DNA of 43,913 nucleotides. It comes from Bacteroidales bacterium (GTDB lineage: Bacteria; Bacteroidota; Bacteroidia; Bacteroidales; UBA7960). Below the pieces are notes generated by a model. That model made no database searches, was not told where the DNA came from, and saw nothing but the letters and a program-made list of their open reading frames with translations. Location of the stretch: assembly GCA_019429055.1 (NCBI GenBank), contig JAHYJP010000011.1:1-43913 (forward strand). The letters are read 5' to 3'. The translations under genes and the position numbers were made by a program. Every line of letters begins with the position of its first letter. Within the stretch, counting starts at the first letter, position 1. Below, one piece after another: positions 21,176 through 25,353 of this stretch.

Positions 21176-22132
21176 TTACAACACATTTTCCGAAATCCGG
21201 GTAATGTGATCAACCTTTCCCATGGTGTATATATGCACAAATGGATAACCATTGGCGAAAAGCTCTTTGATCTGATTACTGGTCCATTCAACTCCCAGTT
21301 CTCTTACTTGCTTGTTATCTGTACATTTCTGAACTTCTTTGGCAAGGTCAGGAGGGACAGTTAGGCTGAAAGTACGCGGCAAAACATTAATGTGTTCTTT
21401 TATACTGATCGGTTTCAGTCCCGGAATAATAGGCACATGAATTCCTGCTTCCCTGCATCTCTTTACGAAGTTAAAGAAAACTTCATTGTCGAAAAACATT
21501 TGGGTAACAATATATTCGGCACCTTTATCAACCTTCTGTTTCAGGTAAAATAAATCTTCATCACGATTGGGAGCTTCGGGGTGCTTTTCAGGATAACCCG
21601 CCACACCTACTGAGAAACTGGTGTGTGTTGGATTCTGAACATATTGTTCATGATAAATTCCATTGTTCATGGCGATGATCTGTTCAATTAAACCAGATGC
21701 GTAGCGATGGCCAAGGGGGTTGGGTTTAAACCTTCCGGTGATCTTATCTCCATCGCCCCGGACTACCAGTAGATTTCTGATACCCAGAAAGTCAAGGTCA
21801 ATCAATGCATCTTCGGTTTCTTGTCTTGAGAAACCTCCACAAATGATATGCGGAACCACATCCACCTTGTATTTTGCCTGTATGGCAGCTGCAATGGCAA
21901 CTGTGCCGGGTCTTTTACGAACCACAGCAGGCTTGAGGCTTCCATCGGCCTGTCTGATGTAAGAAACTTCCTCCCGATGATAGGTTATATTGATAAATGG
22001 AGGACTAAAAGGTACTAACTTTTCCAGCGTATCAAAAATGGTATTGATACTGCTGCCTTTTATGGGAGGGAGCAATTCGTAACTGATCCTGTTATTGCCA
22101 TTGCTTTGGGCTATGTGTTCGGGTATGGTCAT
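21176..22132 (-). CDS. metF: Methylenetetrahydrofolate reductase
   Basis: SYELLPPIKG, DVVPHIICGGFSRQETEDAL, LVVRGDGDK, VTQMFFDNEVFFNFV, IPGLKPI. Confidence 0.95.
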   Translation of the reverse strand: MTIPEHIAQSNGNNRISYELLPPIKGSSINTIFDTLEKLVPFSPPFINITYHREEVSYIRQADGSLKPAVVRKRPGTVAIAAAIQAKYKVDVVPHIICGGFSRQETEDALIDLDFLGIRNLLVVRGDGDKITGRFKPNPLGHRYASGLIEQIIAMNNGIYHEQYVQNPTHTSFSVGVAGYPEKHPEAPNRDEDLFYLKQKVDKGAEYIVTQMFFDNEVFFNFVKRCREAGIHVPIIPGLKPISIKEHINVLPRTFSLTVPPDLAKEVQKCTDNKQVRELGVEWTSNQIKELFANGYPFVHIYTMGKVDHITRISENVL

Positions 22133-22168: not shown

Positions 22169-22282
22169 GGAAATAAGAAAGTAAGAAAGTAAGAAAATAG
22201 GTAACTGAGTGACAGGTGCATAAGTAAATAGTTTTTAAATTAATTTGCTTCGGACTTCGGACTTCAAGCTTCTGACTTCTTT
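22169..22282. repeat. Short-period low-complexity repeats in the hom-metF gap (period ~8 agtaagaa; period 7 cttcgga)
   Basis: aataagaaagtaagaaagtaagaaaatag and cttcggacttcggacttcaagcttctgacttc. Confidence 0.7.
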
Positions 22283-23481
22283 CCCGGAATATCAAAAAAC
22301 GCCAGAAACACATCCAATGTTTGAATCAGTTTCCTGATATGTATGAGATTGGAGAGTTTGATGGTGCCAATTACGTAGTTATAATTGTGTGAAGAAAGTT
22401 TTTCATCGATGGTATCAAACTCAAAATGGCTGAAGTCCAGCAGGTTCTTAAAGCGTAAATAAACTTTCACCACCACATCGTTAGTATGTTTAGGGATAGA
22501 AAAGTATTTGCGCTTTTTATATTCATACCTGTATCCGTGCATGCGGGCAGTAATATCCGAGAGTACTGAACTTCCGGTAGGATGCCCACCGGCACCTTTT
22601 CCGAACATGAACTGTTTCTCGTAGAAGGATCCTTCGATGATCACTCCGTTGTATTCATTTTCTACATTGAAAATGTATTCATCTTCAGTGACCATTTTAG
22701 GCATTACCATCAGGTTAAAGCTTTTTCCATTGATTTTGGTGGCCTGTGCCACCAATTTTAAACGATAACCTTTTTCCTTTGCAAAACGAATATCGCCTGC
22801 CTGCAGGTTGGATATTCCACTTACAAAAACTTCGTCAGGATTAACGATGGTTCCAAAACCATGCAAGGCAAGGATTACCAGCTTGTAAAGCGAGTCCCAG
22901 CCGCCCATATCCAGTGAGGGATCGGTCTCCGCAAAACCTAACTCCTGGGCTTCTTTTACCGATTCCGGATAGTTTTTGTTCTCATTAAAAACTTTTGAAA
23001 GCACAAAATTGGATGAGCCATTGAGGATTCCGGTTATGGAAAGCAAAAGGTCATTGTCGTAATACTCTTCCAGATTTCTTATGACTGGTATTGAGCCACA
23101 GGCTGATGCATCGTATAATAATGCTGACCCCGTTTCTTTTTGAAGCTCAATAAGTTCGGGAAGATGTTTTGCAAGCATTTTCTTGTTGCCCGATACAACA
23201 CTTTTGCCTTTTTGCAGAGCCCGGCTTACGATGTGAAAGGCTTCTTCCGAATCATTGATAAGTTCCACCACCAGGTTTATTTCGGGGTCGTTAAGAATAT
23301 CATCTGCATTAACTGTAAAATGCGTTTTGGGTATGCTTCTTTCCTTTTTCGGATCCAGAATACATATCTTTCTTACCTCAGCATTCGTGGTATGACTGTG
23401 CTGAAGCACATGAAAAAGTCCTTCGCCTACCACGCCAAAGCCGAAGAGCCCAATGATCTGTTTGTTATTGTGGTGTGTCAT
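22264..23481 (-). CDS. hom: Homoserine dehydrogenase
   Basis: GLFGFGVVGEGL; NKKMLAKH; ASACGSIPVIRNLEEYYDND; GILNGSSNFVLSK; AQELGFAETDPSLDMGGWDSLYKLVILA. Confidence 0.92.
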   Translation of the reverse strand: MTHHNNKQIIGLFGFGVVGEGLFHVLQHSHTTNAEVRKICILDPKKERSIPKTHFTVNADDILNDPEINLVVELINDSEEAFHIVSRALQKGKSVVSGNKKMLAKHLPELIELQKETGSALLYDASACGSIPVIRNLEEYYDNDLLLSITGILNGSSNFVLSKVFNENKNYPESVKEAQELGFAETDPSLDMGGWDSLYKLVILALHGFGTIVNPDEVFVSGISNLQAGDIRFAKEKGYRLKLVAQATKINGKSFNLMVMPKMVTEDEYIFNVENEYNGVIIEGSFYEKQFMFGKGAGGHPTGSSVLSDITARMHGYRYEYKKRKYFSIPKHTNDVVVKVYLRFKNLLDFSHFEFDTIDEKLSSHNYNYVIGTIKLSNLIHIRKLIQTLDVFLAFFDIPGKKSEA

Positions 23482-23593: not shown

Positions 23594-24926
<1,333 letters not shown>

Positions 24927-24980
24927 TGAGAAAGTGAATTAAATTAGTTTCGAAATTCGAAATTCGAATTTTATACTTTT

Positions 24981-25070
24981 TGCCTGGCCACAATAGGGCA
25001 ATGGCTTCCATTGGAAGTCAGAAAGATATTGCCCGGGACTGATCAGAATTCAGTGATCAGCAGCCAGGCA
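24981..25070 (-). other. Structured palindromic element (predicted three-way junction) in the metY leader
   Basis: TGCCTGGC/GCCAGGCA closing stem (24981-24988/25063-25070), GGGCAAT/ATTGCCC (24996-25002/25028-25034), CTTCC/GGAAG (25005-25009/25013-25017), CTGATCA/TGATCAG (25039-25045/25054-25060). Confidence 0.6.
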
Positions 25071-25208
25071 TGCGCATAGACATATGCACGCTATGAATGA
25101 AGTTATTGATGGAAGCTTTTACGGGTTGGTATAACGAAAAACAGATACTACCCGAAAGGTGAATAAATTTAAAAAAGAAGAATTCAGTAAACATGATCAT
25201 AATTTTTT

Positions 25209-25310
25209 GTTTATAATTCCTTTGATTAAGGCAGGTTTTGGCACCTTCCCCCGGGAGGGTGGGTTGCCAGAGCATCAGCGAGCCTGTTCTCTCCGCTCTT
25301 CGTTATAAAC
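25209..25310 (-). promoter_or_regulatory. SAM-I (S-box) riboswitch upstream of the methionine cluster
   Basis: Minus strand GUUUAUAACGAAGAGCGGAGAGAACAGGCUCGCUGAUGCUCUGGCAACCCACCCUCCCGGGGGAAGGUGCCAAAACCUGCCUUAAUCAAAGGAAUUAUAAAC: AGAGcGG...GAUG...GGCAACC...GGUGCCAA..CCUGCC core, and perfect 8-bp P1 GUUUAUAA/UUAUAAAC. Confidence 0.93.
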
Positions 25311-25345
25311 ATCTTTTCAAAGAAGTCCTTGCTGAATCAGCAGCG

Positions 25346-25353
25346 CAAAAGTA
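25346..25353 (-). promoter_or_regulatory. Bacteroidota -7 promoter element TACTTTTG for the riboswitch-met transcript
   Basis: Exact TAnnTTTG match ~36 nt upstream of riboswitch P1. Confidence 0.6.

Follow-up and report, generated by a model that had tools for sequence, protein, structure and literature searches.

The metY locus and its leader

The element examined here lies in a window of 43,913 nt, the whole stretch of DNA that was analysed, which covers positions 1 to 43,913 of contig JAHYJP010000011.1 from a Bacteroidales bacterium (assembly GCA_019429055.1). On the minus strand of this window a SAM riboswitch precedes metY, and the transcript was divided into the following features.

25346..25353, minus strand: TAnnTTTG-type Bacteroidota -7 promoter box TACTTTTG, read in the sequence
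25208..25311, minus strand: SAM riboswitch aptamer RF00162 (77.8 bits, E 9.9e-17)
25057..25194, minus strand: leader-peptide uORF of 45 codons, MFTEFFFFKFIHLSGSICFSLYQPVKASINNFIHSVHMSMRMPGC followed by a stop (comparative evidence)
25069..25083, minus strand: three putative regulatory Met codons, ATG TCT ATG CGC ATG (M.M.M in every same-genus copy)
24981-25070, minus strand: three-way junction (fold, RNAalifold on nine sequences, covariation, covariance model R1 at 118.8 bits)
25057..25059, minus strand: uORF stop TGA, inside arm 1 of the junction (A1 columns 38-55)
24893..24976, minus strand: low-complexity spacer from the junction to metY (tandem repeats, sequence not conserved)
23594..24892, minus strand: metY, O-acetylhomoserine aminocarboxypropyltransferase, the regulated gene (TIGR01326, 686.9 bits; PF01053)
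22264..23481, minus strand: homoserine dehydrogenase, the next gene in the same direction (NF004976, 305 bits)
21176..22132, minus strand: metF-type methylenetetrahydrofolate reductase, next in the same direction (PF02219, 201 bits; TIGR00676, 281 bits, just below the cut-off)

The promoter box was assigned from the -7 consensus of the phylum, and the metY transcript probably begins there, judged from the sequence. Its position is kept in the leaders of the same genus and in two genomes of a second genus (G027 and G030). Immediately upstream of the transcript, in the same direction, lies a pyridoxamine kinase gene (NF005491, 25395-26267, minus strand), so that a gene of PLP supply stands beside the PLP enzyme metY. 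The aptamer match is full length, well above the curated 44.4 bits and outside the junction, and it is the single RF00162 match in the genome. No intrinsic terminator was found on the metY strand of the window region, either by our own simple search or by an independent scan, and the window leader is thus not a member of the SAM-I platform that uses an intrinsic terminator.

The earlier note on this DNA had described the leader around the junction as low in complexity. This holds for the downstream spacer, where short tandem repeats (GTTTAGAA four times, TTCGAAA three times) occupy 24895-24926 and 24949-24968 and the sequence varies freely among relatives, whereas the upstream part is a conserved uORF.

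A covarying three-way junction

Folding of the metY-sense strand gave a closing stem of 8 bp plus one G-U pair (24981-24988 with 25063-25070) that encloses two arms of 7 bp each, arm 1 (25039-25045 with 25054-25060) and arm 2 (24996-25002 with 25028-25034). Arm 2 holds an inner CTTCC/GGAAG stem (25005-25009/25013-25017), for which the minus-strand MFE structure contains a rival, register-shifted alternative. The coordinates and all helices that the earlier note had drawn from the letters were reproduced by folding, and its distances of about 140 nt past the riboswitch and about 90 nt before metY were measured as 137 and 88 nt. The metY start, at that distance from the junction, is unpaired in the predicted fold. 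The minus-strand junction has a folding energy of -40.1 kcal/mol compared to -26.8 +/- 3.2 kcal/mol for shuffled sequences (z -4.1, 0 of 200 shuffles equal), and the plus strand of the same interval also folds (z -4.8). When the whole leader was folded, the closing stem and arm 2 formed with a probability of 0.88-1.0 and arm 1 with 0.84-0.99.

An Rfam covariance-model search of the junction returned no match at the gathering threshold except SAM, and relaxing the threshold produced chance matches only. Known RNA classes, hammerhead and other ribozymes among them, were dropped on these models, in agreement with the earlier remark that the element matches none. The junction is present in one copy in its own genome, so a REP- or MITE-type repeat was dropped as well, and with it the suggestion of a small mobile palindrome.

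A DNA search of 59 relatives matched the junction in G003 (90%), G010 (81%) and, partially, G004. When the leaders between riboswitch and metY were extracted, homologous junctions were found upstream of metY in nine genomes of the same genus, and most of these homologues fold unaided into a three-way junction. A covariance model built from the nine sequences (R1) finds each of them again and gives weak matches in two genomes from a different genus; a further R1 match, in G012 (L010, E 0.03), falls within a long coding frame and was rejected as chance. RNAalifold recovered the junction from the nine-sequence alignment, including 11 pairs in which both partners change. Overall 11 of the 24 junction pairs covary and 91% of cells pair. 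Cells changed on both sides numbered 26 against 8.6 +/- 2.4 in shuffled alignments (0 of 500 shuffles equal), and at most 7 when the partners were slid by 1-3 columns; the set is small, comprising nine sequences of which those from G002 and G005 are nearly identical. The G002 assembly carries two versions of the metY leader, L106 (C209) and L122 (C526), one of them near-identical to that of G005, which probably represents two strains or contamination. A clear U-run 3' of arm 2 occurs in G010 only, and the leader yielded no conserved antiterminator pairing.

Covarying homologues in relatives that share the leader were the check that the earlier note had proposed, and they were obtained. They bear directly on whether the element is a mobile palindrome, a repeat or a chance fold. 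A near-symmetric fold on both strands is what such an origin would give, but the single genomic copy, the same placement in relatives and a covariation far above the controls leave it a negligible probability.

A predicted leader peptide between aptamer and junction

The sequence between aptamer and junction contains an unannotated uORF that starts just past the SAM riboswitch, at an ATG at 25194 (a second in-frame ATG lies at 25200), and ends in NNFIHSVHMSMRMPGC at the TGA at 25059-25057. All ten leader copies of the genus contain it, with a length of 43-47 aa and an ATG placed 8-14 nt 3' of the 3' strand of aptamer helix P1. The N-terminal half varies freely, while the tail NxFLHKVHMAMPMPGC before the stop is conserved. 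In the final 16 codons pN is only a small fraction of pS (0.03 and 1.06, for instance, in the G006/G011 pair), and substitutions between distant pairs are mostly synonymous in the tail. From this comparison of sequences, the uORF is under protein-level selection.

Five leaders have an in-frame stop 18-30 nt ahead of the uORF start, showing that the frame is not a simple continuation from the aptamer. A 72-aa frame reported by the ORF finder (25057-25275), which has no Pfam match, was set aside: it begins inside the aptamer, its conservation is limited to the 45-codon part and its upstream portion is closed by nearby stops in G010, G003, G005, G006 and G011. Read-through of the UGA as selenocysteine was rejected because the stop of G011 is TAA, and the uORF of G003 ends in PGY, which makes the final Cys dispensable.

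Of the eight codons that precede the stop, three encode Met. The pattern M-x-M-x-M-P-G-C-stop was unique to the window site among 393 genomes of the order, a sample that holds no other member of the window's genus.

Overlap of the putative regulatory codons with the closing stem

The 5' strand of the closing stem (25063-25070) consists of the last Met, Pro and Gly codons of the uORF, its GCCTGGC being the G of the third Met codon followed by the Pro and Gly codons. By footprint arithmetic, a ribosome with its A site on Met codon 2 or 3 covers this strand entirely. The stop codon takes part in pairing as well. In eight sequences its columns (38-55 of A1) form a G-C pair, while in G011 the change from TGA to TAA is compensated by a change of the partner from C to U and the pair becomes A-U. 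With coding selection and compensatory pairing of this kind, peptide and pairing both appear to be under selection.

The same arrangement was found in shortened form in G027 and G030, which belong to genus g6 of the same family. In these genomes a 22-codon uORF (MQTISINYFLHKVHMAMRQPGC and MKTLRINFFLHTVHMAMRQPGC, each followed by a stop) lies right behind the SAM riboswitch and shares the tail, reading FLHKVHMAMRQPGC and FLHTVHMAMRQPGC; it is followed by a GCCTGG/CCAGGC hairpin and then by metF, with metH further downstream in G027. The two-arm form is limited to one genus and the metF copies are simple hairpins, which identifies the closing stem as the constant part and, on this sequence comparison, the two arms as a genus-level elaboration.

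Since the junction overlaps the end of a Met-rich leader peptide that starts at the riboswitch, its most plausible role is that of an attenuator's switch helix rather than of an RNA that acts alone. Of the three guesses in the earlier note, a second cis-regulatory RNA was thus the right one, except that the element is not separate from the leader peptide. An independent structured RNA that merely abuts the uORF, be it a second riboswitch, a protein site or a processing element, would account for the stable, covarying fold and is nevertheless very improbable: it has no Rfam match, it occurs at uORF ends only, and conservation is poor in its arm loops and in arm 2, leaving no conserved unpaired core of the kind that a ligand pocket needs.

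Predicted leader peptides behind SAM riboswitches across Bacteroidota

The layout was examined in 122 SAM-riboswitch leaders of Bacteroidota, counting as a uORF any ATG-started frame of 12-70 codons that begins 3-19 nt past the aptamer. Such a uORF is present in 63 of the 122 leaders compared to 13.6% of mononucleotide shuffles. The last 10 residues of these 63 uORFs contain 12.7% Met and 26.5% Cys, against 2.0% and 3.3% in the preceding parts, and 48 of the 63 tails have at least two Met or Cys residues, against about 9% of windows of sequence. Our own simple search found intrinsic terminators in 0 of 47 leaders with a Met/Cys uORF and in 21 of 52 leaders without a uORF (Fisher p 1.3e-7, a value that is indicative only because the leaders are not phylogenetically independent and some were picked by MetY similarity). 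Many SAM leaders in other sampled lineages are without a uORF.

The composition of the tail differs between lineages. Families of the window's order have uORFs that end in Met clusters (SMRMR, MFMRCMRSMLS and MDMRGMRM before the stop), and those of Cytophagales and Sphingobacteriales end in Cys runs (MCCCCACCC and CMCMCCCC). In Pedobacter and Mucilaginibacter, relatives that share the layout, the uORFs terminate in CMCCC or CMCMCCCC. Other genes behind uORF leaders resemble aspartokinase, metH and metX, as judged by eye from their N-termini. One leader (L182, G232:C53:15290-16382, minus strand) has a SAM riboswitch, a uORF ending in NNPCCCCCCC (Cys7) and then a gene that appears cysH-like by eye, making combined SAM and Cys sensing at a sulfate-assimilation (PAPS reductase-like) gene possible.

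Several of these leaders also contain candidate helices near the stop. In Cytophagales the Cys codons beside the stop can pair with a conserved downstream CAGCAACA, from reading and single-sequence folds, and a second, covarying hairpin lies 3' of CAGCAACA; RNAalifold recovered the second hairpin and not the codon helix, in a region where the alignment is poor. The metY leaders of this order (for example L044, L038, L061 and L054) share a hairpin TAGCC...CTGCC-RRGTGAC-RGG...GGTTACGGCTA some 30-90 nt past the uORF stop, in which 4 of 11 pairs covary and the loop is unusually conserved, and which could represent an RNA motif in its own right or a protein site. In Sphingobacteriales metY leaders (for example L043, L056, L069, L077 and L082) other conserved hairpins follow the uORF (TCTTCC...GGAAGGCCTC...GAGGTACGC), and a small hairpin, GTATGTGCTGTTGCATATAC, is built from the Met/Cys codons. 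Five leaders of the window's order (L224, L230, L242, L073 and L111) carry Met-Arg repeats (ATGCGC) in a self-complementary context, so that the regulatory codons can form a hairpin of their own, TATGCGCNNCATGCGCA.

The pairs of riboswitch and uORF that take the place of a terminator suggest, at the level of sequence, that a single region senses SAM and, in addition, the availability of charged Met or Cys tRNA. We give about an even chance to the wider proposal of a phylum-wide platform in which the intrinsic terminator has been swapped for a leader peptide whose start would be gated by SAM and whose end would sense charged Met-tRNA or Cys-tRNA, giving a two-input, terminator-free output through a helix near the stop.

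Tail composition also bears on an alternative in which the nascent chain, and not the tRNA supply, arrests the ribosome. The tail FLHKVHMAMxxPGC would then stall its own ribosome, perhaps with SAM or Met bound there, and the stalled ribosome would open the junction. The non-Met residues F, L, H, K, V, H, P, G and C are shared between two genera and between leaders of two different target genes, in contrast to the variable N-terminal part of the uORF, and the conservation of FLHKVH and PGC exceeds what a plain codon run needs. Against this, PGC is constrained by the closing stem too, other families of the order keep Met(-Arg) clusters only, and Cys runs replace them in Cytophagales and Sphingobacteriales, both as expected for tRNA sensing. 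We consider nascent-chain arrest unlikely.

Proposed mechanism

The junction probably serves as switch helix in a leader-peptide attenuator, one that lies behind the SAM riboswitch and is gated by it. The coding uORF, its position at the aptamer, the Met/Cys tail, the overlap of codons with a covarying helix and the absence of a terminator are supported by the comparisons above; gating by the riboswitch, ribosome stalling and the lowering of metY by the junction are inferred from this arrangement. When SAM is bound, helix P1, with its 3' strand 8-14 nt ahead of the start codon, would block initiation at the uORF, allowing the junction to fold and metY expression to fall. When SAM is low the uORF would be translated. 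If Met-tRNA is short, the ribosome would stall at Met codon 2 or 3 of the cluster, covering the 5' strand of the closing stem, so that the junction could not form and metY expression would rise. With ample Met the ribosome would finish the uORF and depart, and the junction would re-form. The output is not an intrinsic terminator; termination by Rho, or a change in how the metY mRNA decays or is translated, is most likely.

Rho is encoded in the genome, and both the uORF and the spacer contain more C than G (0.226 against 0.181 and 0.218 against 0.152, respectively), which fits a role for Rho without proving it. The same observations, with the missing terminator, would be expected if the uORF were a passenger whose translation shields the leader from Rho, with the riboswitch as sole sensor and the junction as an RNA stabiliser near the stop. 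We regard this as improbable, somewhat more so than nascent-chain arrest, since it leaves unexplained both the strong phylum-wide clustering of Met and Cys at the uORF end and the overlap of codons and helix.

If the attenuator reading is true, it would explain how many Bacteroidota SAM riboswitches work without a terminator: the riboswitch would pass control to the ribosome, and one leader would read both SAM and tRNA charging. Met tails in the window's order and Cys tails in Cytophagales and Sphingobacteriales, both before metY, suggest that the limiting precursor is lineage-specific. The uORFs would add dozens of small genes of a kind that automated annotation may overlook, and the system is directly testable.

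Comparison with known systems

Leader-peptide attenuators and riboswitch-controlled uORFs are both already known. No description of a SAM riboswitch joined to a Met/Cys leader peptide in Bacteroidota was found in the open literature, which is weak evidence of novelty, and leader peptides are absent from a 2007 survey of riboswitch mechanisms.

The leaders of mgtCBR and mgtA in Salmonella involve Pro codons and Mg2+, mgtA/MgtL being a further case of this kind. The mgtCBR leader, with two short ORFs (PMC3641672), resembles the window leader in combining leader RNA and codon-sensing short ORFs ahead of one gene, although the sequences are unrelated. The tandem SAM-I and AdoCbl riboswitches of Bacillus clausii metE (PMC2258182) likewise place two sensors in one met-gene leader, but both are aptamers controlling transcription termination, while in the window leader the ribosome would act as the second sensor. 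In the B12 riboswitches with uORFs of Mycobacterium tuberculosis (ppe2 and metE; PMC11260477) a metabolite riboswitch also acts on the translation of a uORF, through which the gene is controlled. The riboswitch is of a different kind, the ppe2 case is based on reinitiation, and the abstract of that report describes no regulatory codon cluster as a second sensor.

Classical attenuators (trp, his and ilv) share with the window leader a short peptide whose clustered pathway amino-acid codons lie inside a helix, and a Cys example is uORFC-8-2 ahead of cysS (PMC8632094). In the window leader a short ORF between the promoter and metY is conserved, codons for the pathway end product are clustered (three Met codons, with phylum-wide enrichment), and these codons lie in or beside the helix that a stalled ribosome would open, with covariation. 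Classical attenuators end in an intrinsic terminator, whereas in the window leader no terminator or sequestering hairpin was found as output and the uORF start adjoins a SAM aptamer; it is therefore better said to work like an attenuator than to be a classical member. Among systems whose working is established, the closest is the speF leader ORF34 of Salmonella (PMC6386406). It senses Arg and ornithine, has no metabolite riboswitch ahead of it and is unrelated in sequence, and its control also includes RNase. As in the window leader, a uORF with regulatory codons acts without reliance on an intrinsic terminator and a hairpin lies just past the uORF stop; in speF, stalling alters the mRNA fold and Rho is involved.
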